From: Colwellia psychrerythraea
Lineage (GTDB): Bacteria > Pseudomonadota > Gammaproteobacteria > Enterobacterales > Alteromonadaceae
NCBI GenBank assembly: GCA_002163005.1
Contig: MAAF01000044.1
Coordinates: forward strand, 1 to 64,000
Direction: 5' to 3'
Length of the DNA: 64,000 nt
Positions 28,106 through 42,675 of this stretch are shown in pieces. Every line of letters starts with the position of its first letter. Positions within the stretch are counted from its first letter, which is position 1. The notes beneath the pieces were generated by a model that saw only the letters and a list, made by a program, of their open reading frames with translations, searched no databases and had not been told where the DNA came from. Position numbers and translations under genes: made by a program.

Positions 28106-28906
28106 GTTATAGACCCTTAAGTATTTTTATTAGGCTTGCTTTATAAGTGATAAATATTCATTTTTTGTTACTCATTAATCTTTTATGAGTTGTTCTATCT
28201 GAATTTATTATCGCAAGTAATGTGTAACATAAATGAAAACTTTCATTGGCGCAATACTCATAGTAGTGAATTATTATTAAGTCATACTGAATGGTTATTT
28301 AGTCAGCGATACGTTAGTGCATATAGTGTGTTATTTTCATTACAGAACCTGGTCCGATCTGATCGGTGTTTTGTGTGTCAATGAGGTTAAATCTTAAATT
28401 TTAAAATGAATGCATAATGAATAACTAAACAAAGTGGGCTGGATGTGCTTGTTTGTGTAAATTAAGTTGAGGCTTGATAGCTTTTATCTATCCGTATAAG
28501 GATAGCAGTGTAGATATAGACTTATGAAAGCAACGGTGAGCATTTTAATGACTGTTTAACTGTAATAGTCTAAATTAAGGAGAGATACTTACAGGCTATT
28601 ATTTACTCAGGCCAAGAAACACAACTAACGCTAAGTGACAATTAAGCTGTCAGGAGATAATCAAATCGTTGTATGTTAATGTTTACAATATTGTGGGGAG
28701 AAAAGCTTACAGTGGTGACTTATTTGTGTTTTTATTATTCTACATCAAAGAAGTTTTTAGGTAAAAATGCTTCCGATTTTTGGTTGGGCACTAAAAAAGC
28801 CAGTATTACTACTGGCTTTTCAATTTTATACTCGCTTTTGCAGAAAGGTATTTTACACTTTGTAGCTAGGCTAAAAAAGTGGCAAGCTACTTAACTTCTG
28901 TGAATT
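28106..28906. other. 800-bp noncoding flank left of the transposon
   Basis: No convincing gene in either strand. It holds the receptor promoter region, a short CTATCC...GGATAG hairpin near 28491-28508, and an orphan terminator at 28795-28820. Short open frames here cross the terminator or lack ribosome sites. Confidence 0.5.
28795..28820. terminator. Orphan terminator hairpin
   Basis: AAAAGCCAGTA (28795-28805), loop TTAC, TACTGGCTTTT (28810-28820). The stem is perfect but no gene on either strand obviously ends at it. It may close an unseen small RNA or a deleted gene. Confidence 0.8.
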
Positions 28907-29021
28907 ACAACGTTCTGTTGTACTATAATCTTTAATACATCTATTTTACACAAAACTATTGGCTACTAGGTTAATCCTTAACGTTTTCTTGTTAGTATTT
29001 TACATCTTTATTTTGTACTGG
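28907..29021 (+). repeat. Left transposon end with spaced TnsB-type sites
   Basis: Four related motifs: ACAACGTTCTGTTGTACTA (28907), ACATCTATTTTACAC (28937), AACGTTTTCTTGTTAGTA (28980) and ACATCTTTATTTTGTACTGG (29002). They are spaced by about 20-45 bp, as in one end of Tn7. Confidence 0.7.
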
Positions 29022-29080
29022 TTTTCTTGTGAATTAGATGTGCAGCAATTTATGTAGCCAGGTTGTAAGGGAATAAAACA

Positions 29081-29824
29081 TTGAAAAATACTTTATTTAG
29101 GTATTCTAGTCCAAGTAGTAAGTTCTTTTTAAATGAACTGACTAAGCGCGAGCTTTATTTTTCACATCCTTCTGATTTTAATGATCCGTTTGACTGCCAA
29201 ATGGAATATAAAAGAGCCCTAGAAGAAGCATTAGAACAAGCTAATTTAAAAGAATACTTTTCAAGTAAGGAGTTGAGTGAATTATTGGAGCATACTCTCA
29301 ATAATGTAGGAGTATGCTGCTTCAGTCGAGCTAAGAAAAATCAGTTAATGTGGTCTCATTATGCTGAAAAGCATACTGGCATTTGTCTTGGCTTTAATAG
29401 AGAAGTGCTAAGGCGAGATTTGTCTATTAATCTGATAAAAAATGTTGTTTATCAAGCATCACATCCACTTGATACAATGATTGGTCAGTTCCAAATACTA
29501 GCTATGGATGATGTGCCTGACATTAAAGCGCTGTTAAATACTTTTATATATCCACTACTAATAACGAAGTACTCATATTGGAAGTATGAGCGAGAGACTA
29601 GGTTCATTACTAAAAACTATGGTACGCAAAGTATCTCTAATAAGGCTATTCAGTCGTTAACACTTGGTCTTAAAATATCGAATGATATCAAAGGTAAAGT
29701 TTTTCGGTTGCTACAACAACCTGAGTGGTCGCATGTTAAAGTTTATCAAGCTAAGAAAGCTCAAGGTCGATTTGCTCTTGACTTTGATAGGCTATCTCAA
29801 AGTGGTGAATTAATATGCCAATAA
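29081..29824 (+). CDS. DUF2971 family protein, first gene of the tns operon
   Basis: A 247-residue protein with the DUF2971 landmarks LYFSHPSDFNDPFDC (residues 27-41), CCFSRAKKNQLMWSHYAEKHTGICLGF (about 78-104) and YSYWKYERETRFI. The family is of unknown activity and is often found in mobile or defence regions. The start is TTG with AAGGGA upstream. Its last codons overlap the tnsA start by 10 bp, so the two are translationally coupled, and it lies between the transposon end and tnsA, a position not seen in Tn7 itself. It could be a regulator, a toxin-like cargo or a transposition factor; no evidence decides. Confidence 0.82.
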   Translation: MKNTLFRYSSPSSKFFLNELTKRELYFSHPSDFNDPFDCQMEYKRALEEALEQANLKEYFSSKELSELLEHTLNNVGVCCFSRAKKNQLMWSHYAEKHTGICLGFNREVLRRDLSINLIKNVVYQASHPLDTMIGQFQILAMDDVPDIKALLNTFIYPLLITKYSYWKYERETRFITKNYGTQSISNKAIQSLTLGLKISNDIKGKVFRLLQQPEWSHVKVYQAKKAQGRFALDFDRLSQSGELICQ

Positions 29825-30453
29825 GAAAAATCCCGAAAAATTATAGTAACGTTACTGGTATTGCCGCTCATTCTAAAGCTACAGGACAAGCCATGTTTGA
29901 ATCTACTCTAGAGCGTGACTTTTTAATGCTATTAGAATTTGATAAAAACGTAGACAGCTTTGAAGTGCAACCGGTTAAGCTGCAATGGTTAAACGATTTG
30001 AATAAAAATCGATCATATACGCCAGATGTTTTAGTTTATTATAAAAAGAATAGACCGACACTATTTGAAGTTAAGTACCGAAGTGATATCAATAAAAACT
30101 GGGAAGTATTAAAACCAAAGTTTAAAGCTGCAATTCGTTTTTGTAAGGAAAATGGATGGAAATTTAAACTCATAACAGAAGTTGAAATCAGAACTGCATA
30201 TTTAGAGTCTGTTAAGTTTTTATTGCCATTTGTTCGACAAGGCGCTTCGAATGAAGATGATATGATGATTTTAGACGATAAACTTATCGAGCTAAAAACT
30301 ACGACACCCAAAGAGCTAATATCATCCATTTATAGTGATGAATGGAACCAAGCTGCTTTGTTACCAACTTTATGGTACCTAATCGGCAGTAGACAAATTC
30401 AAATAGATCTAACACCCAAAATAACCATGTCTAGCAAAATTTGGAAGAGATAA
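29815..30453 (+). CDS. tnsA: TnsA-like transposase endonuclease
   Basis: A 212-residue protein with the restriction-enzyme-like catalytic core of TnsA: SYTPDVLVYY with D71 and TLFEVKYRS with E85 and K87, preceded by a glutamate-bearing helix (FESTLERDFLMLLEF, 28-42). TnsA cuts the 5' ends of the element so that, together with TnsB, transposition is cut-and-paste. It is shorter than Tn7 TnsA (273 residues), mainly in the C-terminal TnsC-contact region. It overlaps the DUF2971 gene and is followed 6 bp later by tnsB. Confidence 0.9.
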   Translation: MPIRKIPKNYSNVTGIAAHSKATGQAMFESTLERDFLMLLEFDKNVDSFEVQPVKLQWLNDLNKNRSYTPDVLVYYKKNRPTLFEVKYRSDINKNWEVLKPKFKAAIRFCKENGWKFKLITEVEIRTAYLESVKFLLPFVRQGASNEDDMMILDDKLIELKTTTPKELISSIYSDEWNQAALLPTLWYLIGSRQIQIDLTPKITMSSKIWKR

Positions 30454-30459
30454 ATCAAT

Positions 30460-32328
30460 ATGGAATCATCAACGTTAATTAAAATAGAACCAGGTAAAAA
30501 AGTTTCATATAAAGGTGATAATTATCGAGTTGTCGAGCTTCTTAATTTAACTCAAATAAAGATTGTAAATGAAACCACTGGTATATCTTTTACTGTTTCT
30601 GTGGACGATATTGATATTCAAAAATTAGAATCAGCAGGTCACACTGACGAATTACTAAATATTACAGAGGAATCATGGAACCTTGCTAAGTCTCGCTTAA
30701 ACACGATAAAGCCTTTGTTAAACCTATCCAATCGTAGTCGTTCTGATGTAGAAAAGGCAGCAATTGGTAATAACCTACATACGAACACACTATATGGTTG
30801 GTTAAAATTATATGAAGCATCCGGCTTATTGTCATCGCTTTTACCTAAAGTTAGGCGAGATCGTGGTTCAACTAAGTTTGATGAAGAAATTGAAGAGCTG
30901 ATTAAACAGGCTATAGCAACAGAGTATTTAACCAAGCAAAAAAAATCACAAAGAATGGTCATTGATGAAGTTAAAAAACTGTGTAGAAAAGAAAATTTAA
31001 CGCCTCCCCACGATAATACTATTCGGAATAGGATAAAAGCACTATCTCCTGAGCTAGTAGCATCACGCAGACAAGGGCGTAAGGTCTCTGACAATACTTA
31101 CCGACCAATTCAGAAGAAGTTTCCAGGGGCGGATTGGCCATTAGCCGCGGTTCAAATTGACCATACTAAATTAGATATAATTTTAGTTGATGATTATTAC
31201 CGTAAAGCTATTGGCAGACCCTGGATAACACTAGCTTTTGATGTTTATAGTCGTATGGTTACTGGCTTTTATGTTTCCTTTGATCCCCCTAGTGCAATGA
31301 CTACAGGTTTATGTTTAATTCATTCTATTTTGCCAAAAGAAAAGTGGTTGGCAAAATATGATATCAACGGTGAATGGCCTCTTTGGGGATTACCGACCAA
31401 AATCCATGTTGATAATGCAAAAGAATTCCGCGGCAATATGCTTCAAAAAGCATGTGAGCAATACAATATCGATATTGAATGGAGACCTGTTGCTAGGCCA
31501 AACTTTGGTGCGCATGTAGAACGCGTACTTGGTACCTTTTCAAAAGAAATACATGCATTGCCAGGTTCTACTTTCTCGAATATATTTGAAAAAGGTGATT
31601 ATGATTCGGAATCAAAAGCATCTATGACGTTAAGAGAATTTGAACATTGGTTAGCTAATTATGTTGTTAATGTATATCACCAAAAAATTCATTCAATGAT
31701 AGGTATGACACCGGTCGCTAAATATAAGCAAGGTATTTTAGGCGATGAGTATAACCCTGGTTGCGGTTTACCTGCAAAAATTAGAGATGAAGAACGTTTA
31801 AAGTTTGATTTTATGCCGTACGAACTTCGTTCAATACTCGACTATGGTGTTGTTATTGATAAGGTTCATTATTATCATGACGTTTTACGACCTTGGATTA
31901 ATGCAGCAGAAGAGAACGAGCCAAGAAAAAAGCGTAAATTTATTTTTAGACGAGATCCTAGAGATATAAGCCAAATTTGGTTTTATGATCCCGAACTACA
32001 TTCACACTTTGCTATTCCGTATAGAGATACTTCGCACCCAGCGATAAGCATATGGGAACTAAGAGAAGCAGCCGCTAGGGCTGAAGCTCAAGGTAAAGAA
32101 ACTTTAAATGAACATGTCATTTTTGAAGCTTACGAAAAAATGAGGGAAATCGAGCAGGAAGCGGTTCATAAAACTAAAGTGGCGAGGCGATCAATACAAC
32201 GTAGAAAGATACATGCCAAAGTTGAAAAGCCGATACCAAAAAATATTGTTGCTGAACAGTTAGATACTAACGATGATATCCCTGAATTGGAAATTGAACC
32301 ATTTGATGAAATGGATGACTGGTCATGA
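30460..32328 (+). CDS. tnsB: TnsB-like DDE transposase
   Basis: A 622-residue Mu/Tn7-type transposase. N-terminal DNA-binding helices occupy residues about 70-200. The catalytic triad is visible: D234 (AVQIDHTKLD), D318 (KIHVDNAKEF) and E354 (HVERVLGTF), with 35 residues between the second Asp and the Glu as expected of retroviral-integrase-like folds. A Mu C-terminal-like domain follows, and an acidic tail (DDIPELEIEPFDEMDDWS) probably contacts TnsC. It should bind the repeated ACAACG/TTGTACT sites at both ends. Its stop overlaps the tnsC start (ATGA). Confidence 0.95.
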   Translation: MESSTLIKIEPGKKVSYKGDNYRVVELLNLTQIKIVNETTGISFTVSVDDIDIQKLESAGHTDELLNITEESWNLAKSRLNTIKPLLNLSNRSRSDVEKAAIGNNLHTNTLYGWLKLYEASGLLSSLLPKVRRDRGSTKFDEEIEELIKQAIATEYLTKQKKSQRMVIDEVKKLCRKENLTPPHDNTIRNRIKALSPELVASRRQGRKVSDNTYRPIQKKFPGADWPLAAVQIDHTKLDIILVDDYYRKAIGRPWITLAFDVYSRMVTGFYVSFDPPSAMTTGLCLIHSILPKEKWLAKYDINGEWPLWGLPTKIHVDNAKEFRGNMLQKACEQYNIDIEWRPVARPNFGAHVERVLGTFSKEIHALPGSTFSNIFEKGDYDSESKASMTLREFEHWLANYVVNVYHQKIHSMIGMTPVAKYKQGILGDEYNPGCGLPAKIRDEERLKFDFMPYELRSILDYGVVIDKVHYYHDVLRPWINAAEENEPRKKRKFIFRRDPRDISQIWFYDPELHSHFAIPYRDTSHPAISIWELREAAARAEAQGKETLNEHVIFEAYEKMREIEQEAVHKTKVARRSIQRRKIHAKVEKPIPKNIVAEQLDTNDDIPELEIEPFDEMDDWS

Positions 32329-33221
32329 GTTGTTATAAGCATTTAAGTGACAAAGCTATCGAGCAATTAAAACTTGATAATGACGCAAGAATTGAAAAAA
32401 TTCGGTCTGATCGTTGGATTGGTTATCCAAAAGCTAAGTCAGTATTAACTAAGTTAGATGACTTAATGTCATATCCACGTATTGAGCGAATGCCTAATAT
32501 GTTGATCGTTGGAGACACTAATAACGGAAAAACGCTGTTAACTAAACGTTTTTTGAAGCAATACCCTGCTAAAGATAACCCCGAAGGGGATGGGATATTT
32601 GCGCCTGTTTTACTTGTTCAAGCGCCACCAGTACCAGATGAAGGCCGTTTTTATAATGCAATTCTTGAATTGTTATTTGCTCCTTATAGGCCAAGTGAAC
32701 GTGTTGACAAAAAACAGTTTCAAGTGATTAAACTATTACGATACATAGGTACAAAAATACTGGTTATAGATGAAATTCATCATATTTTAGCTGGAAATTT
32801 GAATAGGCAACGTGCCTTTCTTAATGTGATTAAATATTTAGGGAATGAATTACAAATATCTATTGTAGGAGTGGGTACAAAAGATGCATTTCGTGCTTTA
32901 CAATCAGATCCTCAATTATCCAATCGATTTGAACCTGTATTGTTACCTCGATGGGAATTCAATCAAGATTTTTTGAGATTACTTGTCAGTTTCGAACGTA
33001 TGTTGCCATTAAATAAAGCCTCTAACTTACATGCTAAAAGTTTAGCTATGCGTCTTTTTTCAATGAGTGAGGGGTACATTGGTGAATTGTCTCGGATACT
33101 TAATGATGCAGCTGTTTATGCTGTTAAAAATAATATAGAAGAAATTACGCCTGTTGTATTAGATAAAATTGAATGGATTTCTCCTTCTCAGCGTAAACGT
33201 CAATTAGACGGGGCAATCTAA
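32325..33221 (+). CDS. tnsC: TnsC/TniB-like AAA+ ATPase
   Basis: A 298-residue AAA+ protein with Walker A VGDTNNGKT (62-70) and Walker B ILVIDEIHH (145-153), followed by a sensor segment (LQISIVGVGTKDAF). The size is close to TniB and the short TnsC of CRISPR-associated elements, smaller than Tn7 TnsC (555 residues). TnsC links target-site selection by TniQ to the TnsA-TnsB transposase. It overlaps tnsB by 4 bp and is followed by tniQ after 1 bp. Confidence 0.93.
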   Translation: MSCYKHLSDKAIEQLKLDNDARIEKIRSDRWIGYPKAKSVLTKLDDLMSYPRIERMPNMLIVGDTNNGKTLLTKRFLKQYPAKDNPEGDGIFAPVLLVQAPPVPDEGRFYNAILELLFAPYRPSERVDKKQFQVIKLLRYIGTKILVIDEIHHILAGNLNRQRAFLNVIKYLGNELQISIVGVGTKDAFRALQSDPQLSNRFEPVLLPRWEFNQDFLRLLVSFERMLPLNKASNLHAKSLAMRLFSMSEGYIGELSRILNDAAVYAVKNNIEEITPVVLDKIEWISPSQRKRQLDGAI

Positions 33222-33222
33222 A

Positions 33223-34212
33223 ATGTTGTCCGGTGAGTTATGGCCAGCTCATCCACATCCTTATGCTGGAGAGTGCTTATCTTCATGGATAGTCAGGACA
33301 GCCCATCATAATGGCTTAAAAGTACAAACATTTTCAGATCTTACATTTGGTAAACATAATCAAATTTGGAATAGAGATATTGATAAATTAGCACCAGACT
33401 TGGTAATGAAAATTATGTCTAGTTTTACCTCTACATCAAGAGCTATAACCAATAAAACTACGCTTAATTTATATACAAATAGACTATTTCCTACGATCAG
33501 ACCATCGGGCATATTACGGTGGGTAAACCCTTTAGTGCTACATCATAGAAAACACACTGCATTCGGTATGCAATATTGTCCAGTATGTTTGTCTGAAGAT
33601 AAAGAACCGTATTTTCGTATTGCATGGCGATTAGCTATTTATACGTTTTGCCCAATTCATAAGGTAATGATGAAGGATCATTGTAAGTGTGGCGCAAGTG
33701 TTAATTTTCATCGAATTGAGCTAGGTAAAGCTAACATTATTGATGTAGGAACACTTGATGAATGTTGGCAATGTGGTAGTAAATTAAGTGATATAGCAGT
33801 ACGTACAATTGACCTTAGACCTAAATCTGTTTTTAGTATATGGAATCGAGTGCTAGGAGTTATTCAGAGAAGCTTTGTTAATTCAGGGCCAATAAATTAC
33901 AACCGTTTAATTCTAGTACACCAAATTTGTAAAATTATCGCATCGAAACGTTTCAACCATAATATCCAGTCTTATATTTGTGATAAATCAGCTATGCCAT
34001 TTTGTGATATTAGTGAGAAGACATATTTCGAGCAACATAACGTTTATGAACGGCATTATATCTTACAGTTGGCATGGTGGTTAATTGGTAATACACCAAG
34101 AAAGCTAGAGGAGTCGCTAAAATGTAATGCACTGAAAGTTAATTATTTATATAGGGATTCTCAGGAACATTTCTTGCGCCAATTATTTTCCTTAAGCTCT
34201 GGTAAACTATGA
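33223..34212 (+). CDS. tniQ: TniQ/TnsD-like target-selection protein
   Basis: A 329-residue TniQ-family protein: N-terminal ELWPAHPHPYAGECLSSWIVRTAHHNGL is diagnostic, and the zinc ligands run C119xxC122, C143xxH146, C154xC156 and C181xxC184. Tn7 TnsD is 508 residues and reads glmS with its C-terminal half; this protein is much shorter, closer to Tn5053-type TniQ. If it selects the site at the lipA 3' end, the DNA-reading part must lie in the roughly 145 residues after the zinc region. It is last in the operon; the metallophosphoesterase gene converges on it 3 bp away. Confidence 0.9.
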   Translation: MLSGELWPAHPHPYAGECLSSWIVRTAHHNGLKVQTFSDLTFGKHNQIWNRDIDKLAPDLVMKIMSSFTSTSRAITNKTTLNLYTNRLFPTIRPSGILRWVNPLVLHHRKHTAFGMQYCPVCLSEDKEPYFRIAWRLAIYTFCPIHKVMMKDHCKCGASVNFHRIELGKANIIDVGTLDECWQCGSKLSDIAVRTIDLRPKSVFSIWNRVLGVIQRSFVNSGPINYNRLILVHQICKIIASKRFNHNIQSYICDKSAMPFCDISEKTYFEQHNVYERHYILQLAWWLIGNTPRKLEESLKCNALKVNYLYRDSQEHFLRQLFSLSSGKL

Positions 34213-34215
34213 TAT

Positions 34216-35394
34216 TTACAATTTTATGAAAACGTTCTTTTTTTCTAAAAATTTAATAAAACTCTGTTTTTGTGAAGCATTGTTATCTTGTGTTCTTCGT
34301 TGCTTTTTCTCGAATAATAACTGTGTGCAGTAACTGGTTTTGTCAAAGCCTGTAATTCGATCAAAAAATTTTTCAGCAGTCTTTATTCCAAACTTTTCAA
34401 TAATAATTTTTTGATTGGTTATTTGATACGTTTCATCTAACATAACCCATTCTTTGTCTCCTTTATATTTTATTAAACCACCTAACCCTTGATATTTTGG
34501 AACAAATGCTATCTTTTTTCTTATATCTAAAAGCTCAGCTAGCATTCGCTTATAAGCTCTTTGTTTTGCTGCTTCAAAATGAAATGCCGCAGAACCATTC
34601 ATTTTGTTATTAGAAATGTCGATATTAAAATGATGGTCTACTTTAGTTTCTCGGTGGCAATGGTGATTATCATTGCAAGGAACACATATATCACACCCAT
34701 TTGAGTAATATGCAGCATCAATAGAGCGATCTTCAAACGTTTTACTTTTACGTGATAACTTTGTCTTATAGCTGTAATTACGCTTCATCATTTCTGCAAT
34801 ACTGTATTGATAATCATCATTGGGAGGGGTAAAACCTTTATGGATTGCTTGACCTAATATGTTTCCACATTCGTCAAATAGATGCTCACAAGTAGAAATT
34901 GCTAAAGCACATGAGATATCGTAAATACCAACGGGATCGAATAACCTGTGCCCATGTAAATGTCCGTGAAACACTGCTACAGCATTACTTTTAAGGGTTA
35001 GCTCTGCTGTATTTATGGCGCAATGGTGCCAGTCGTAATGCGGCATATCTTTGAAACCTGTTGGAGGATAATGAGACACCACAATATCTAAGTTCTGACT
35101 ACACATGACATCATGTAATTGCCAATCGTATCCACCGATTCTGAGCCCGTCTATTTCAATTATTTTACCGTCTATCATATGAGGCATATCTGCAAGAGGT
35201 ATTGTTCTCAAATCATGGTTTCCACTAACGGCATAAACCTTGATCCCCTGTTCAAGGATACTTTTAAAAGTAGCCGGAATAGTTTTTTTCAAACAATTAT
35301 CCCCCATCAGTATTAATGCAGTAGGTTTTAATTTATAGCAGGCTTCTATTAAAGGCGTAATTACACCATGGGGATCAAAAGCAAAAATAATCAA
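34216..35394 (-). CDS. Metallophosphoesterase with Cys/His-rich C-terminal region (transposon cargo)
   Basis: Residues 1-160 show the calcineurin-like metal site: DPHG (7-10), GDN (31-33), GNHD (58-61), SHYPP (107-111) and GHLHGH (144-149). The second half is unfamiliar and holds a tight cysteine/histidine cluster (CDICVPCNDNHHCHRE, about 234-249) that may bind a metal. It could be a nuclease or cyclic-nucleotide/protein phosphatase; none can be chosen. It begins at the left of the cargo block and runs opposite to the tns operon. A divergent promoter region of 162 bp separates it from the HTH-like gene. Confidence 0.75.
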   Translation of the reverse strand: MIIFAFDPHGVITPLIEACYKLKPTALILMGDNCLKKTIPATFKSILEQGIKVYAVSGNHDLRTIPLADMPHMIDGKIIEIDGLRIGGYDWQLHDVMCSQNLDIVVSHYPPTGFKDMPHYDWHHCAINTAELTLKSNAVAVFHGHLHGHRLFDPVGIYDISCALAISTCEHLFDECGNILGQAIHKGFTPPNDDYQYSIAEMMKRNYSYKTKLSRKSKTFEDRSIDAAYYSNGCDICVPCNDNHHCHRETKVDHHFNIDISNNKMNGSAAFHFEAAKQRAYKRMLAELLDIRKKIAFVPKYQGLGGLIKYKGDKEWVMLDETYQITNQKIIIEKFGIKTAEKFFDRITGFDKTSYCTQLLFEKKQRRTQDNNASQKQSFIKFLEKKNVFIKL

Positions 35395-35472
35395 ATATAA
35401 TTCAACAAAGTTTGTAAAATATATTGAGAATAATAGCGAATATTTTTTAAAACGTAATGATTTTTTATCGAT

Positions 35473-35518
35473 ATGTCAAGTTTTTACCATTTGACATGTC
35501 GTATAATAATGCTACAAT
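35473..35518 (+). promoter_or_regulatory. Promoter and palindromic operator of the methyltransferase operon
   Basis: TTGACA (35491-35496) and TACAAT (35513-35518) with a 16-bp spacer form a strong promoter. ATGTCAA (35473-35479) and TTGACAT (35491-35497) make an inverted repeat that covers the -35, and GACATGTC (35493-35500) is itself palindromic. This suits control by the small protein encoded next, as with restriction-modification controller proteins. Confidence 0.65.
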
Positions 35519-35556
35519 TAATTTATAGTATTGTTTTTATGCGACAGTGTGATTGT

Positions 35557-35949
35557 ATGAATTGTAATGATTTAACAAATTTTCAAATTTCGGAAAGGGT
35601 TAAATTTGAACTAACTAAGAGGGGGCTTTCTTTAAGAAAGTGCTGTGATGGCTTTAATAGTAAGTATAAAGCTGATATTGAAGCTGGTTCCCCACCCCTT
35701 GATAAAGATTTTGTTCAGAGAATTAAAAAGAATAAATTTGAGGTAAGTAGTAAACGTGTCTCAAAACTTTGCGACTTTTTAGGGATTAGTGTCTCAACAA
35801 CTAATGCACCAAGAGAGTTGAAATTAAGAAAAGAGTTTTTACAAATTGAAGATGCAATACAAGGTAACCCTGAATTGGAGCGACAAGTTCGAGGTTTACT
35901 TAGAAATATTACTCAATTAGCCAATACATCAACTTTACAAGGAAGTTAA
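35557..35949 (+). CDS. Small HTH-like putative regulator upstream of dcm
   Basis: A 130-residue protein. ISERVKFELTKRGLSLRKCCDGFN and SSKRVSKLCDFLGISVS resemble the first helix and the DNA-binding end of phage-repressor-like (XRE) proteins, but the centre is atypical. The predicted transcription start near 35525 excludes the earlier in-frame starts; ATG 35557 is taken and ATG 35539 is possible. The stop is separated from the methyltransferase ATG by 1 bp. It is likely a controller of the operon acting on the palindrome at 35473; this is inferred from position and promoter layout. Confidence 0.65.
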   Translation: MNCNDLTNFQISERVKFELTKRGLSLRKCCDGFNSKYKADIEAGSPPLDKDFVQRIKKNKFEVSSKRVSKLCDFLGISVSTTNAPRELKLRKEFLQIEDAIQGNPELERQVRGLLRNITQLANTSTLQGS

Positions 35950-35950
35950 T

Positions 35951-37207
35951 ATGAAATTTATCGATTTGTTTGCGGGATTAGGGGGCTTTCATACAGGGTT
36001 TGTCAACAGTGGGTATGAGTGCGTTTTTGCGTGTGAACTTGAACCTCATTTGAGAGAGTTATATCTAAAAAATTATGGGATAGAACCTCATGGTGACATC
36101 ACAAAAGTGGATGAGAAAATTATTCCTGAACATGATGTTATGTGTGCTGGTTTTCCTTGTCAGCCATTCTCACTCGCAGGGAAGAAGAAAGGCTCTGAAT
36201 GCCCAGAGTCTGGTAGATTGATAGATCATGTTATTCGCATTGCAAAACACCATAAACCTAAGTTTATTGTCTTAGAAAATGTACCTAATGTTTTAACAAT
36301 TGCTGATGGTTCATTTTGGGACTATATGAAAGAGTCATTCAAGAACATAGGTTATAAGCTTGAATATAAAATAATTTCACCAGTGGATGTCGGTATTCCT
36401 CAAAATAGAAAACGAGTTTTTATTGTCGGGAGTAAATTAGAAGATGGAAACTTTATTTGGCCAAGATACAATGAGCTAGATAAACAATCGCTCTTTGATA
36501 TTCTCGACAATAATTGTGATTCAAAACCTTTAGAACCTAAGAAAATAGAACAATTGGCACATTGGCAATCTTTACTTAACTTAATTAACTTAGATAAGCT
36601 TGCTTCCATGTCATTGGTTGCGCCAGAATTTGGAGCCGATTATCCTTTGGACTTTAGCTCTATGACTATTAAGCAAATGCGAAGTTATAAAGGAGCTTAT
36701 GGCAAGTCACTCAAAAACTGTAATACATGGGTTGAAGTTTTAGCTTTATTACCAAGTTATTGCCAAAAGAATAAGTTAGTTGCATCTTGGCTTGAAAAGT
36801 CAGTTAAGTTTAGCCGTGATGTTTATTCAAATAATGCTAGCGCTATAGATATTTGGTCTGAAAAAATAGATAAAAATAATAACAGTTGGCAGATCCTCGA
36901 ATGGAGAGGAAGGCATTTTGAGCATGATATTTATAGTCATATTGTTCAGTTTAGAGCTTCAGGAATACGAATTTTAAAGCCTGAAAAAGCACCATCATTA
37001 ATATCAATGACTACAACTCAGATACCTATAATACCCTCTCAAAATCGTTATATTTCAGCTCATGAAGCAGCTAAATTACAAAACTTACATGAGCTTCCTA
37101 ATTTACCAGATGGCTTAATTAAGTCATTCAAAGCTCTAGGAAATGCCGTTAACGCAAAAGTTGTAGAGATGATTGCAAGTAATTTAAAAGTATGGAAAAC
37201 TACTTAG
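35951..37207 (+). CDS. dcm: DNA (cytosine-5-)-methyltransferase
   Basis: A 418-residue C5-MTase with motif I FAGLGGF (7-13), motif IV GFPCQPFSLAGKKKG (67-81, catalytic C70), motif VI LENV (108-111), motif VIII QNRKRVFIVG (151-160), a target-recognition region (about 170-330), and motifs IX-X near the end (ISAHEAAKLQ and KALGNAVNAKV). It transfers methyl from AdoMet to cytosine in a specific DNA site that cannot be read from sequence. No typical restriction endonuclease is adjacent; the partners are a GHKL ATPase and a PIN-like gene, so it may supply self-marking for an unconventional defence system. The symbol is generic for the family. Confidence 0.93.
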   Translation: MKFIDLFAGLGGFHTGFVNSGYECVFACELEPHLRELYLKNYGIEPHGDITKVDEKIIPEHDVMCAGFPCQPFSLAGKKKGSECPESGRLIDHVIRIAKHHKPKFIVLENVPNVLTIADGSFWDYMKESFKNIGYKLEYKIISPVDVGIPQNRKRVFIVGSKLEDGNFIWPRYNELDKQSLFDILDNNCDSKPLEPKKIEQLAHWQSLLNLINLDKLASMSLVAPEFGADYPLDFSSMTIKQMRSYKGAYGKSLKNCNTWVEVLALLPSYCQKNKLVASWLEKSVKFSRDVYSNNASAIDIWSEKIDKNNNSWQILEWRGRHFEHDIYSHIVQFRASGIRILKPEKAPSLISMTTTQIPIIPSQNRYISAHEAAKLQNLHELPNLPDGLIKSFKALGNAVNAKVVEMIASNLKVWKTT

Positions 37208-37247
37208 TACAAATTATCGTTGTCTAATAATTAAAAGGAATTGAAAA

Positions 37248-38978
37248 GTGAGTAGAGATGATAAAGATAAAAATAGAACAAACTTTGAAGTCGATGTGTC
37301 CCCCGATATGGGAATGTACAGAATCCTACCGCAGCAAGGCTACAATCCTGCATTCGCTTTAGCTGAGTTCATTGATAATGCAATACATGCATTTCAACAC
37401 TCTGAATCTATTGAAAAACCTAAAACTTTATCTGTTACCTTAAATTTTTATACAAATGAATATGACAGAGATACCTCTAAGCGTAACTCTATTGAAATTA
37501 TTGATAATGGACCAGGAATGCTAAAAAGTGAGTTGGCAAGAGCTTTTAAGCCAGCTAAGAAGCCTATTGTCGAAGGATTAAGTGAGTTTGGTATAGGCAT
37601 GAAAGCTGCGGCAGTTTGGTTTACGGATACCTGGCAATTAGTCACAAAAAACATTCATGAACCAGAATATCATACTGTAAGTTTTGATTTGCCTAAATTG
37701 CTAGATAAAGGACAAAGTACAATATTAGTTAATGATAGTGAGAACTACAGCATTAACCATGGGGTAGTTGTAACACTTAAAGATATTCGGAGTAGAAGAT
37801 ATTTTGATAAAAGTAAGGTTGAAGCTATTTGTCAGACAATTAGCGAAATTTATCAAAAATATACGCGTGAAGGAGAGTTTAATAAAATACTTGAACTTAA
37901 AGCGTCTATAGACGGGGATAACACTAGAAATCTTATATATAGCTCCCACGCGGATAATACAGCTTTAATATCTGAAGTTAATAAACTTGTAACTAGGCAA
38001 GGAAAGAAAACTTATTATGCTATCGGTAATGAGAGACGTTGGTTTAAAAAGATAGATTTTGATTATACGTATGAAGGAGTAACGTCAGCGATAACAGGGT
38101 TTATATATATACTAAAAACAGCACGTTATGGTAATAAAAATCAAGGGTTAATATATTTCAGAAATGGTCGAGTAATAGTTGGAACACATGAAAAAGAAAA
38201 TAAACCAGAAAAGCTATACGGTACTAACAATAAATACCGTGGGCAAAGGTTATATGGTGAATTAAATATTGACGGTCTTCCTGTTACATATACTAAGGAT
38301 GGTATTGATTTTGATGAGGATGTATTCATAGAAAAGTTAATGGAAGATGAAGAAGTTGCTTTGTTTATCCAACAATGTGAAACACACCGTGCAGATATAA
38401 ATGATAATGAAATAAATCATGTGAACACGGAAGCTGATATTCCACCTCCTTCTAATAAAAAGCCAGAACCTTCAAAACAGGCAAAAGGAAAAAGTAAGCC
38501 TGCGCCTAAAAAGAAAACTAAAAAGAAAAGCAAATCTCAGCGAGATATGATATTCGAATATTTAATTAAGCTTAAAGACTCTGATATAGCGACCTTAGGG
38601 ATTAGATCTTTTATTGAAGAGCTGAGATATCAAATAGTTGCAGATAGAGCTATAAGCGCTACTCTTAGTTTGAGGGTTGTGTTAGAAAAAGGAATATTGG
38701 AGCGAATTCAAAAAGACTTTTTACCTCAGTATAACCGTGTAGAGCAAATGGGGATTCAGGCACTAGTTAATTATATGTCCAATAATAAAGGAGATTTTTT
38801 TGTGCTAGGTGAAGAAAAAGCATTTAAATGCGCACAAGCTAATTCTAAATCTAGACAGTTTGATAATGTATTGGTTCTAAATAGTGTTGGTCATGGGAGT
38901 TTTAACCCTGATATCACGGAAGTCGAAACAATCATTTCTAATCTGCAACCATTGTTAGATTGGGCATATAAAACTTGA
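37248..38978 (+). CDS. MORC/Hsp90-type (GHKL) ATPase
   Basis: A 576-residue protein with an N-terminal GHKL ATPase: N box EFIDNAIHA (40-48, E40 and N44), DNGPGM (86-91) and GIGMKAA (115-121). This is the pattern of MORC and Hsp90-like ATPases, which clamp as dimers upon ATP binding. A transducer-like region follows, then a Lys/Pro-rich linker (about 405-430) and a helical C-terminal domain of unknown type. It lies 40 bp after dcm with AAAAGGAATTG as ribosome site. Such ATPases recur in defence islands near methyltransferases; the enzymatic partner here may be the broken PIN-like gene. Confidence 0.85.
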   Translation: MSRDDKDKNRTNFEVDVSPDMGMYRILPQQGYNPAFALAEFIDNAIHAFQHSESIEKPKTLSVTLNFYTNEYDRDTSKRNSIEIIDNGPGMLKSELARAFKPAKKPIVEGLSEFGIGMKAAAVWFTDTWQLVTKNIHEPEYHTVSFDLPKLLDKGQSTILVNDSENYSINHGVVVTLKDIRSRRYFDKSKVEAICQTISEIYQKYTREGEFNKILELKASIDGDNTRNLIYSSHADNTALISEVNKLVTRQGKKTYYAIGNERRWFKKIDFDYTYEGVTSAITGFIYILKTARYGNKNQGLIYFRNGRVIVGTHEKENKPEKLYGTNNKYRGQRLYGELNIDGLPVTYTKDGIDFDEDVFIEKLMEDEEVALFIQQCETHRADINDNEINHVNTEADIPPPSNKKPEPSKQAKGKSKPAPKKKTKKKSKSQRDMIFEYLIKLKDSDIATLGIRSFIEELRYQIVADRAISATLSLRVVLEKGILERIQKDFLPQYNRVEQMGIQALVNYMSNNKGDFFVLGEEKAFKCAQANSKSRQFDNVLVLNSVGHGSFNPDITEVETIISNLQPLLDWAYKT

Positions 38979-39010
38979 TCTTAACTAAAAGGATTTAAAT
39001 CATCAGTAAT

Positions 39011-39882
39011 ATGAAGAAGAATTTTTTTTACTGATGAGCAAACTATTGTTGTTCTTGACACATCACCTGTTAGAAATTTAGCACATTCTGAAACACCAAG
39101 CTGGGTAAGTACTTATTCAAAAATGTCGAAGGATGGATATTCTTTTAGTCTTGCTGATTCAACTGTTGCGGAGTTGCTGATACAAGTGCGATCTGGGCGT
39201 ATACCGATTGTTGGTTATAATAAAATGATAGATCTTTTAAAAACATTCCTTAATAAAGATTTACCAATACTACCAGGTAAAAGGGATTTAGAAGTTATTA
39301 TTGGCCTTCATCAATTGAGAGAAGGTCTTGAGGAGATCTCCTACCTATCGCAACACGGCTGGTATCAAATGTTGATGCCAGATCGTGAATACGCTCACTT
39401 TGGTCCTTCATTAGAGAAAACTTGTAAAGAAGAGCGAGATAATTGGGCTGATTTTATAAGAAGTTTTGCTGAAACGGCCTTTTGTTATGGAATTGATATA
39501 GCAAATTCTCAACCCAAAGTTGTGGCTGATTTTCTTGTAGGGAAAGTGAGTGAACATATATCATCGGATACATACATTGAACCTTCGATTGCTGTACGTA
39601 GGCATTTAGAGATACGTTATCGAATAAGACAAGTTGTAAGAAGTTTACAGAAAAAAAGCCGTATAACCTTATGAACAAAAAAATATAAACGATGGTATTG
39701 ATGTAGACCTTTATAATTATCTTATTCTTCCCGCATTTGTTGTGGCGGACGACAGTGGTTTTTTCAATTGCATTCAAGATATAGATAGCTTTCAAACTAA
39801 ATGGTTTATGCGGCCTGATGAACTTGCTGATTTATGGCTAAAGGGGGATAAGCCAAAACCCGAATGGGAGCTTAAGCTCTAA
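39011..39882 (+). pseudogene. PIN-like nuclease gene disrupted by two frameshifts
   Basis: Three frames join into one protein of about 290 residues. MKKNFF begins at ATG 39011 but runs into TGA; the frame carrying DEQTIVVLDTSPVRNLAH begins after an 8-T run (39022-39029) and is restored if one T is removed. A second shift near 39669 (extra T in ACCTTATGA) separates KKSRIT from YEQKNINDGIDVD, which continues to the stop at 39880-39882. VLDTSPVRNLAH, ADSTVAELL and VVADDSGFFN place acidic residues as in PIN ribonucleases (inferred). The central frame alone (39123-39674) could give 183 residues but lacks both ends. Dead gene, phase-variable gene or sequencing error are all possible. Confidence 0.78.
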
Positions 39883-39893
39883 AAAGTATATTG

Positions 39894-41615
39894 CTATAAC
39901 TTTCTAAATATGGCATTTGAAAATTGCTCTTCATTTGTCCAAGTATGTTTCAAAGTAACAACTTCTATATCTGAAAATAGATGAGATATTTTAGCCCATA
40001 CACCTTTTTCATAGGCTAACTTTCCTAATAACTTATTTAGCCCAATATCAGATATTTGATATCCAGGAGTAACGCTTATCAAGGCAACATTAAAGCTTTC
40101 ACCTTTCCTAGATTCAAACTCTAATAAGATATACTGGCAATTTTGATATTCAATGTTGGCTGTTATTACTTGTCGACGACAATATGTTTTTGAGTCTAAA
40201 TACGCCCACTGCCTATATCGAGCAGATTTAGTCAGTGGTAAATATTTAATAAGCTCGTTTAATGACCTGACATAAGCAGAGATAGCATCTTTTTTATTTA
40301 ATAATTCAATAGCTACTCTAAAATAATTAAAGCTTGCAGGAAGTGATTTAGAGCGTACACGTTGGTGGATAACATTTCCTCTACCGGCACTTGAATCTTT
40401 ATCATGTCCCTGACCAGTAGTTAAGGAGTCTGAGTCCTTATCATTCTGTACTGCTGCAATGCCACTCATATAGTGACATTGTTCTTTTGTTGGTTTATCT
40501 GGCTTTTTTCCTTCTATTGCAGCGAAGCGATTTGTTGGTAAGGTAATTGTTTCAGTCGAACATTCTTTATTTGTTTCCCGTTTGTTTTGTAGATCCTTAC
40601 TACCATCAGATTCTTTGTTTTTGGGTGTAAGCCAAGCAGACTTCTTATCTTCAAATGAAAGGTTTTTACTTGGGTCTGCTTCTCGATGGTTATCATTATC
40701 GCGAGGGAAAGTTGCATTTTCAAACGGAAAAGGTGCGGTACAATGCTCTAACCCTAAAACTAACGTTCTCCATCCGTTTTCTGTAATAGAGAGAATTTTC
40801 TTTGTTCTTGCGGTTAAATTGGTTAAACCTGTAAATGGGAATTTTGAAGCAACATGTATCCATCTAATATTGTTAATAGAGTTCTGTAATATATCGTCAA
40901 ATGGTTGGTTTGCACCTTCAAATGCTTCTTTGGCATTAAGTATACGGCCAATAACCCAACCCTCTTCATCAGTGATCTGTTTTCTTAAATGCAAAATACA
41001 TCGAGACTCATCTTCAATATTACCACTGTTTTCAGGGTTAATAAGTGAATTAATATTATGCTTAAAGGCTCCAGAAAAAACAGCATGTGAAAGATGTGTT
41101 GATAATGCATAGTAAAATCGAATAACTTCTATTACAGGGATCAATATACCAAAGGGATCGCCTTTTGAACTAATTGCTATGAGTTTGGAGTAAAGACCTT
41201 CTTTACCAAACTTATAGAAACTAGGGGGAATAAGATATTTCCCATCAATTTTATGGTTAGCATTGATGATTTTTATATTGTCATCAATGATGTTAACACC
41301 ATAGAGAACGTTCTCTGTTCCTGATTTGAATGACTGTATAAAGCCATTTTTCCATACGGAACCAATAGAAATAAATGGCAGTTGGCCAACACCAATTTGA
41401 ATTGACTTTCTATCGTCATCATTTACTGCATTAGCAGAAGCTAATTCTTTTGGCTCTTTAGAACTTAAGTCGTTATGAACAAATGGGCTGATAATAATCT
41501 GTATGAAGGGTTCAGAGGGGATATTATGGTTGCGAATGATTGCGCCAAAGGCATCAACTCGCCAATAACGTTCATCGGCGGGAAACTCCTGTATTTTAGG
41601 AATATTCCTCGCCAT
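39894..41615 (-). CDS. Probable TnsE-like transposition protein
   Basis: A 573-residue protein read outward-to-inward from the right end of the element. A long N-terminal region (1-300), a disordered, charged linker rich in Asp, Lys, Ser and Asn (about 300-430), and a compact C-terminal domain (about 435-573, with QYILLEFESRKGESFNVALIS) follow the layout of Tn7 TnsE, whose C-terminal core has a comparable FVLLEVDASDG strand. TnsE steers Tn7 to replicating or conjugating DNA. Sequence similarity judged by eye is weak, so this is tentative; position at a Tn7-like end supports it. It starts at ATG 41615, 53 bp from the element terminus. Confidence 0.55.
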   Translation of the reverse strand: MARNIPKIQEFPADERYWRVDAFGAIIRNHNIPSEPFIQIIISPFVHNDLSSKEPKELASANAVNDDDRKSIQIGVGQLPFISIGSVWKNGFIQSFKSGTENVLYGVNIIDDNIKIINANHKIDGKYLIPPSFYKFGKEGLYSKLIAISSKGDPFGILIPVIEVIRFYYALSTHLSHAVFSGAFKHNINSLINPENSGNIEDESRCILHLRKQITDEEGWVIGRILNAKEAFEGANQPFDDILQNSINNIRWIHVASKFPFTGLTNLTARTKKILSITENGWRTLVLGLEHCTAPFPFENATFPRDNDNHREADPSKNLSFEDKKSAWLTPKNKESDGSKDLQNKRETNKECSTETITLPTNRFAAIEGKKPDKPTKEQCHYMSGIAAVQNDKDSDSLTTGQGHDKDSSAGRGNVIHQRVRSKSLPASFNYFRVAIELLNKKDAISAYVRSLNELIKYLPLTKSARYRQWAYLDSKTYCRRQVITANIEYQNCQYILLEFESRKGESFNVALISVTPGYQISDIGLNKLLGKLAYEKGVWAKISHLFSDIEVVTLKHTWTNEEQFSNAIFRKL

Positions 41616-41628
41616 TATTTTATAACGT

Positions 41629-41667
41629 CCCAGTACAAAATAACGATGTAGTACAAAATATCGTTGT
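41629..41667 (-). repeat. Right transposon end with tandem TnsB-type sites
   Basis: On the minus strand two abutting motifs, ACAACGATATTTTGTACTAC and ATCGTTATTTTGTACTGG, repeat with an 18-bp period. TTATTTTGTACTGG is identical to 14 bases of the innermost left-end site at 29008-29021. Confidence 0.75.
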
Positions 41668-42675
41668 CTAGTCGCTAGAAGGGTTGTAACTCACAACTTC
41701 TTCACCAGCGGCTTGTTTATCAGCATGGTAACTTGAACGAACAAGTGGACCACAAGCAGCGTGTTCATAGCCCATTTTCTTGGCTTCACGCTCAAACATA
41801 GCAAAATCATCAGGATGTACATAGCGTTCAACAGCTAGATGATCTTTACTTGGTTGAAGGTACTGACCAATAGTTAGCATAGTTACACCGTGATTGCGTA
41901 AGTCTTGCATTACTTCTAAGATTTCTTCGTTAGTTTCACCTAAACCAACCATCAAACCAGATTTAGTGGTCACGCCTGGATTTGCTTCACCAAAACGCTT
42001 AAGTAAGTCTAATGACCATTGGTAGTTGGCGCCTGGACGTACTTTAGTATAAAGACGTGGCGCGGTTTCCATGTTGTGGTTTAGTACATGTGGCGGATGT
42101 TGATTAAGTATTTCAAGCGCTCGGTCCATTCGACCACGAAAATCGGGTACTAATATTTCTACTTTAGTATTTGGCGCTTGTTCACTAATCTCTTTCACAC
42201 AATCAGCAAATTGCTGTGCGCCACCATCACGTAAATCATCTCTATCAACCGAAGTAATAACAACGTACTTTAAGCCCATATCTTTAAGACTATTCGCTAA
42301 TTTTTTCGGTTCTTCACTATTTGGAGCGAGTGGGCGACCGTGGCCAACATCACAAAATGGGCAGCGACGCGTACAAATATCACCTAAAATCATAAAGGTG
42401 GCTGTACCGTGGTTAAAACATTCAGATAAGTTAGGGCATGACGCTTCTTCACATACAGAGTGAAGGTTGTTTTTACGTAAATTAGCTTTGATGTTATCAA
42501 TACGCTCACTAGAACGAGGTAACTTGATACGCAGCCAACTTGGTTTACGTAACATTGTCGCTTTAGTTGAGCTGACAACTTTAATTGGGATGTGAGCTAA
42601 TTTATCTGCATCGCGAAATTTTTCGCCGGCAGCACGATTGGCTGTTTTTGTTTCTGAGGTTAAGTCGTTACTCAT
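41668..42675 (-). CDS. lipA: Lipoyl synthase
   Basis: A 335-residue radical SAM enzyme that inserts two sulfurs into protein-bound octanoyl chains. The auxiliary cluster ligands C75, C80 and C86 ([12 protein letters not shown]) and the radical SAM triad C101, C105 and C108 (CTRRCPFC) are intact, as is the C-terminal RSSYH (313-317) that ligates the auxiliary cluster. The tail after [15 protein letters not shown] (VSYNPSSD) is longer than in E. coli. The stop codon TAG directly abuts the Tn7-like terminus, so the last codons may or may not be native. It overlaps lipB by 8 bp. Confidence 0.96.

Follow-up and report, generated by a model that had tools for sequence, protein, structure and literature searches.

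Tn7-like transposons inserted recurrently at the 3′ end of the lipoyl synthase gene lipA

The element and its junction with lipA

We analysed a 64,000-nucleotide stretch of Colwellia psychrerythraea DNA (assembly GCA_002163005.1, contig MAAF01000044.1, positions 1 to 64,000; hereafter the window), in which lipB and lipA (41668-42675; TIGR00510, E = 5e-140) lie on the minus strand and a Tn7-like gene set lies beyond lipA. On the plus strand, this set encodes TnsA (29815..30453; PF08722, E = 9.4e-22; PF08721, E = 7.1e-6), the DDE transposase TnsB (30460..32328; PF09299, E = 4.7e-8), a TniB-type AAA+ TnsC (32325..33221; PF05621, E = 1.7e-75) and a 329-residue TniQ (33223..34212; PF06527, E = 9e-27, with matches to TniQ entries in PDB). 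TnsB and TnsC are thus accompanied by both TnsA and TniQ, and the definition of Tn7-like transposons that we used, given in part of a review (PMC11406308), is TnsB and TnsC plus TnsA and/or TniQ. An earlier reading of the window from its letters alone (the sequence-only reading) had described a 12.8-kb element with TnsA, TnsB, TnsC and a short TniQ, which the domain matches and the 12,797 bp between the termini bear out. It had missed a gene adjoining lipA that encodes a divergent, 573-residue TnsE-like protein (39894..41615, minus strand) and starts 52 nt past the lipA stop codon, on the same strand.

The element spans 28899-41695 and is flanked on both sides by a perfect 5-bp target duplication, ACTTC (left copy 28894..28898, right copy 41696..41700). 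Its left end (28899..29021) begins at 28899 with the terminus TGTGAATTACAACG and holds three spaced, putative TnsB-type sites (about 28905-28925, 28947-28967 and 29001-29021, limits set by eye). The right terminus, GTTGTAACTCACA, extends to 41695, with putative TnsB-type sites 2 and 3 at 41650-41667 and 41630-41650 (within 41630..41667, limits again by eye). Both termini are of the TGT...ACA type. With several predicted TnsB-type sites per end, these termini and a 5-bp duplication, the ends are those of a Tn7-like transposon.

The right terminus is also the end of lipA. The host-derived part of the gene covers 41696..42675 (minus strand), and the remainder, 41668..41695 (minus strand; TGTGAGTTACAACCCTTCTAGCGACTAG), is transposon DNA that encodes the last eight LipA residues and the stop, VSYNPSSD*. 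An orphaned native lipA end lies beyond the other side of the element (28887..28893, minus strand) and, with the duplication, reads GAA GTT AAG TAG (E-V-K-stop). Deleting the element and one ACTTC repeat rebuilds a LipA ending in GEEVK*, which places the insertion point inside the second-last sense codon. A search of 99 related genomes found lipA in 97, and the native ending EVK* or EIK* was present in 27 of the 29 loci retained from that search, all of which were read. Comparison with uninserted relatives, a check proposed by the sequence-only reading, therefore mapped the junction. The element does not stop directly at the lipA stop codon, as had been claimed; it begins 28 nt inside the lipA open reading frame (ORF) and supplies the stop. 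Nor is lipA kept quite intact, as that reading had proposed: the transposon end rewrites its last residues.

Recurrence at lipA and relatives in comM

Using the window TnsB, we searched 295 genomes of the family. A TnsB at least 56% identical occurred at ten places, all of which fit lipA: eight elements have both ends on one contig, at lipA, and for the two split by contig ends the position was inferred. Of these two, G219 has the left flank ATATC, matching GATAT on the lipA-side contig of Alishewanella aestuarii (whose agreeing TnsB coordinates lead us to treat both as one genome), whereas in G055 the right end is present on the lipA contig for about its first 100 bases. The tnsB homologues that the sequence-only reading had suggested looking for beside lipA 3′ ends are thus present, and close relatives were not found at random positions, apart from one off-site copy in Colwellia maritima.

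Right junctions could be read for 16 lipA insertions, counting each genome once: the eight fully mapped elements and L095, L097, L098, L099, L102, L105, G055 and G424 (a remnant in P. arctica was excluded). Fourteen junctions fall at the same base and two (L095 and G055) exactly three bases further, a difference that preserves the reading frame. In 16/16 insertions the lipA frame reads into the right end and meets a stop after 6-11 codons (G055 judged by eye), and the same transposon end adjoins lipA in all of them. The duplications vary among elements (GAAGT, GAAAT, GACGT, GATAT); therefore it is the place that is fixed, not the duplicated sequence. Both flanks were retrieved for 15 elements, C. 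maritima included, and 13 of these showed a matching 5-bp duplication; for the other two, in A. longhuensis and an Oceanospirillaceae metagenome-assembled genome (MAG), the patterns used did not find the left end. The 16 insertions at this spot, more than chance would give, and the fit of all ten close TnsB relatives in the family search support lipA as a true attachment site that this Tn7-like clade uses repeatedly.

Joining the flanks of eight elements gave EVK* in five; the other three yielded, once each, EEVS*, GNYKKVE* and an older tail of the transposon type. In G277 the left flank retains, immediately past the duplication, about 55 bp from the right end of an earlier insertion, so lipA was struck twice in that genome. 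A single Alteromonadaceae MAG has one empty lipA end (EVK*) plus one filled. From such empty and filled sites we infer that the elements are mobile.

To cover a wider range of hosts, one genome per species (84,980 species) was scanned with two peptide patterns from the TnsE-like alignment; several of these genomes also belong to the family search set. Of 14 loci found, 11 adjoin lipA, in an Alteromonadaceae MAG, Planctobacterium marinum, Pseudoalteromonas luteoviolacea (two), P. byunsanensis, P. ostreae, A. aestuarii, Rheinheimera sp. YQF-1, A. longhuensis, Thalassotalea sp. and, as a remnant, P. arctica. In the remnant (L108 9926-10288) LipA ends KEVK*, the truncated TnsE-like match covers only residues 1-91, and the best TnsB in the genome is only 30% identical. 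Two further loci, in R. pacifica (L104/L071) and the Oceanospirillaceae MAG (L106/L144), are on contigs that stop at the transposon terminus, which suggests more than one copy or mixed states; lipA was not found in the genome of the Oceanospirillaceae MAG.

The remaining locus is the off-site copy in C. maritima (L100 9653-9940, 10001-11737), which lies inside a piece of an IS1634-type transposase ORF with TCAAC on both flanks; the genome's own lipA is empty and ends EVK*. The right end of this element, TGTGAATTACAACCCTTCTAACGACTAA, resembles those found at lipA although the copy lies off lipA, so the tail belongs to the transposon. By eye, the copy is near genes resembling cobalamin genes, and its TnsE-like ORF is without an in-frame start where others have one.

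Transposon-type LipA tails also occur where no element was seen, in the other two of the 29 loci read, G012 (L010/L061; VVNFNPTSD) and G004 (L011/L062; VKNFNPTAD). Around these two lipA genes, the roughly 18-20 kb retrieved contained no window-type tns gene. Possibly the tails are scars of lost elements, maybe now fixed in the host gene. A native C-terminal extension of LipA as the source of the tails, which these two genomes had suggested, was ruled out by the C. maritima end and by the EVK* obtained on flank joining.

Searches at higher ranks returned few matches. At order level, 8 of 394 genomes had one: the window, G055, G424, G499, G072, G371, G039 and G535 (the last not followed). G424, from another family, has its element at lipA with the tail VVGYHTI* (its TnsB was left out of the comparison). 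Weaker matches were those of G499, G072, G371, G039 and G535; G072 lies beside comM (by eye) and G039 at comM, and no lipA was present in 8 kb at the G371 match. At class level, 369 genomes gave three matches: the window, G039 and a distant one, G818. The distant TnsE-like gene of G818 (L126 336-4143) directly adjoins a gene identified by eye as a RecQ-like helicase, which might be a further attachment site. No plasmid copy of the clade was seen in PLSDB, where among the matches listed (at least 5000 TnsB records) all were below 60% identity; the TnsE-like query found two records at 21%.

More distant TnsB relatives lie elsewhere. Fourteen further places in the family search have 35-49% identity over most of TnsB, and the nine examined all adjoin comM sequence (G297, G148, G354, G302 and G172 were left out). 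The flanking protein belongs to the YifB family by NCBIfam in G299 and G110 C16, and the other cases were assigned by similarity to G299 pieces; YifB is ComM. In the TnsB tree, the lipA group, with the C. maritima copy counted in, forms one clade (support 100/100). The comM elements form no single group; they branch successively outside the lipA clade and are its nearest branches (the tree carries a long-branch warning, and one deeper fork is weakly supported, 80/78). A single lipA clade beside comM elements points to a switch of target. G110 and G287 each hold one lipA element plus one comM element. Between the window and G287, TnsB is 85% identical and LipA only 69%, which indicates that the element moved between hosts.

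Only tnsA, tnsB, tnsC, tniQ and the tnsE-like gene are common to all eight mapped lipA elements; cargo varies. In the window, the variable cargo region (34216..39674) has five ORFs, encoding a metallophosphoesterase-like protein (34216-35394, minus strand) and, on the plus strand, a small protein (35473-35949), a cytosine methyltransferase (35951-37207), a HATPase protein (37248-38978) and a product with no assigned family (39123-39674). Counterparts of the small protein (65% identity) and the methyltransferase (82%) of this cargo (window 35473-38978) are present in a comM element from a different genus (L080 4837-7611), which also has a HATPase at 34% identity. Cargo thus passes between elements with different targets. 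Upstream of tnsA, a gene for a DUF2971 protein (29081..29824, plus strand) matches the PADLOC candidate defence family PDC-S31 (E = 2.8e-45) and is present in one other of the eight lipA elements compared.

What selects lipA, and the right end as coding sequence

TniQ is 320-344 aa long across the eight mapped elements and matches solved TniQs of the CRISPR-associated transposon (CAST) type over about residues 5-165. In eight of nine alignments with TniQs of comM elements the match breaks off somewhere in residues 165-258, and in the ninth at residue 315; the profile alignment to the G299 TniQ extends over residues 7-196. Since alignments to the comM TniQs mostly stop before it, the lineage-specific C-terminal part would be a candidate lipA reader; TniQ is plausibly the likeliest protein for this role. 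In the window, a conserved LipA block ends 23 nt before the junction. Across 15 element-bearing lipA genes this block is invariant as protein (one position varies) and variable at wobble positions, with no invariant wobble base in the block and no extra wobble conservation near the target. Any reader would therefore have to tolerate wobble. TnsD of Tn7 binds glmS at a similar distance from the insertion point.

The TnsE-like protein is harder to place. The window ORF had no Pfam match at E = 0.001. Pfam TnsE_C was matched by one of six members and then by two of eleven (best E = 0.00023); in the genome search the G046 copy, at 24.2 bits, fell short of the 26.7-bit cut-off, while the window copy was below reporting at E = 0.001. 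A profile comparison with seven TnsEs from that family was colinear over 428 columns (E = 0.0019), with a probability of only 14.5%, and no solved structure matched up to E = 1. The gene is remote from the core genes and runs against them, as passages of PMC10293859 describe for TnsE in Tn6022; position and strand fit, although sequence support is weak. We therefore call the product of 39894-41615 TnsE-like, not TnsE. In all eight elements its gene has the same orientation as lipA and starts 43-75 nt past the lipA stop codon, an arrangement suggesting that it is transcribed from the lip operon.

It is highly probable, in our judgement, that a Tn7-like clade with tnsA, tnsB, tnsC, tniQ and a divergent tnsE-like gene homes to the lipA 3′ end, with its right end supplying the LipA ending and TniQ with TnsC reading lipA. 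Sequence comparison shows that insertion takes place at one fixed position in the coding sequence, a short way upstream of the native stop, always in the same orientation and with duplication of 5 bp, and that the right end then provides the last 6 to 11 codons and a stop; it also shows the clade branching beside and among comM-inserting elements. TniQ with TnsC might recognise the codons of the conserved LipA block ending 23 bp before the junction, tolerating wobble, and then bring TnsA/TnsB to the fixed insertion point. The TnsB-type site at the right terminus would be shaped to encode a short polar tail with which LipA stays functional. The TnsE-like protein may open a second pathway, to sites other than lipA, and the C. 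maritima copy is maybe a product of it.

Homing of this kind has to be set against other accounts of the locus. Inverted ACAACG... sequences near 28907 and 41667 resemble ends, and the sequence-only reading had ended the element there, which would leave it just past the lipA stop and the gene untouched. Those ends were dropped, since the ACTTC duplication and the empty-site comparison place the termini elsewhere: the TGT...ACA termini with their ACTTC repeats lie 8 nt (left) and 28 nt (right) further out, and a like right terminus is found off lipA in C. maritima. An untouched gene is refuted by the empty-site comparison and has hardly any probability left. A single ancestral insertion, passed down together with the lip region or spread by recombination, would also place elements at lipA without repeated homing, and the elements of the family search all come from one family by design, with only G424 found at lipA outside it. 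Against such common descent, the native lipA ending is present in 27 of the 29 relatives read, TnsB and LipA distances conflict, the duplications differ (GAAGT, GAAAT, GACGT, GATAT), and in G277 a second insertion lies next to an older relic end; we regard this account as very improbable.

Other alternatives concern the selector. CRISPR-guided relatives use short TniQ proteins, as described in parts of PMC10293859, and the element could likewise be RNA-guided. No cas gene was present among the ten element ORFs searched, however, the element gave no Rfam RNA match, and the longest exact match between lipA and element was 9-12 nt in eight elements, the same as in controls. A guide with many mismatches is conceivable, yet RNA guidance is extremely unlikely. 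The TnsE-like protein deserves more weight: alone or together with TniQ it could select lipA, leaving TniQ a mere connector. Its gene is present in 8/8 mapped lipA elements, always at the lipA-proximal end, and the protein has diverged far from typical TnsE. In passages of Faure et al. (2023; PMC10293859), a small TniQ without a large C-terminal extension is a hallmark of an additional selector, and the 369-aa 'short' TniQ of Tn6022 requires TnsF. On the other side, comM relatives also have TnsE-like homologues (G299, G287 C4, G310, G220 and G110 C16), and TnsE, in the part of the review that treats it, recognises replication-associated structures and not a sequence (PMC11406308). Selection by the TnsE-like protein thus seems unlikely, though it is the strongest competitor to selection by TniQ with TnsC.

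Some observations count against homing to lipA by TniQ with TnsC. At 320-344 aa TniQ is short, yet it has no conserved partner except the TnsE-like protein: no TnsF-like gene was found, and the eight lipA elements share no further gene next to tniQ. The C. maritima element lies off lipA despite an empty lipA in that genome, and G499 has a more distant TnsE-like gene (L124 559-2229, 181 bits) with no lipA in the 6.5 kb retrieved. A comM element likewise has unlike left and right ends, so that the change in the right-end site may not be peculiar to lipA elements.

This last point bears on the role of the right end. The TTG..ACT core of the first TnsB-type site, a pattern picked after inspecting the data, occurs in 13/14 left ends and 0/18 right ends (some near-copies). 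Read in the same frame, left ends would give more hydrophobic tails (Mann-Whitney p = 0.0006 on distinct tails, which are related sequences and not independent). These differences suggest a right end selected for coding. In a fuller version of this idea, the right end would be dual-purpose, both a TnsB-binding end and an evolved replacement of an essential enzyme's last codons, and the tnsE-like gene, 43-75 nt behind lipA, would effectively be a new member of the lipBA operon, a mobility gene driven by host transcription. We offer this tentatively, as a possibility we take seriously without quite favouring it.

Relation to known systems

Apparently, lipA is a new and safe landing site for Tn7-like transposons, used by a family of them from marine bacteria. 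The Tn7-like sites named in the portion of the review consulted are glmS, comM, yhiN, parE and tRNA (PMC11406308). A lipA attachment site was not reported among the papers listed by full-text searches (supplementary tables lay outside the search, and an earlier listing is possible), and it is absent from the passages seen of Faure et al. (2023; PMC10293859), Benler et al. (2021; PMC8649781) and the same review. The finding adds an attachment site in the lipoyl synthase gene and shows how a Tn7 relative can exchange a target that it disrupts, comM, for a gene that survives the insertion. Being compact, apparently guided by protein and equipped with only one, short TniQ, the element is attractive for learning how TniQ proteins read DNA.

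The closest known elements are Tn6022-like/AbaR and other comM elements, which share the gene order TnsA-TnsB-TnsC(TniB)-TniQ; the position and strand of the TnsE-like gene also fit those described for the divergent TnsE of Tn6022-like elements (PMC10293859, in part). They differ in target, comM as against lipA, and in effect: comM elements disrupt their host gene, whereas the lipA clade rewrites a gene ending. The Tn6022 group has TnsF beside its short TniQ, in contrast to the eight lipA elements, which share no TnsF-like gene. In lipA elements, unlike comM ones, the TnsE-like gene lies directly at the target-proximal end, and the termini are TGTG as against TGACA in one comM element. CASTs (I-F3, V-K, I-B and I-D) are alike in having TnsB, TnsC and a short TniQ and unlike in their Cas effector and guide, neither of which was found in the lipA element.

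With Tn7 at glmS, which follows its TnsD pathway, the lipA element shares a fixed orientation and a target at the 3′ end of a conserved gene (PMC11406308, in the part consulted). The lipA element lies outside the Tn7 glmS clade, having neither a TnsD-sized selector nor a glmS target. Tn7 resembles it further in its 5-bp duplication and in a reader bound upstream of the insertion point. TnsD is larger, at 508 residues against 329 for the TniQ here, and Tn7 inserts after the glmS stop; the lipA element instead inserts inside the coding sequence. For a DDE transposon, it would be unusual to have ends that double as the coding end of a host gene. A parallel is offered by phages and islands that restore a gene 3′ end, such as phage 21 in icd, where replacement C-terminal codons are supplied as they are in lipA; those phages and islands rely on tyrosine recombinases and a shared core, whereas in the lipA element the end of a DDE transposon is itself the coding sequence.

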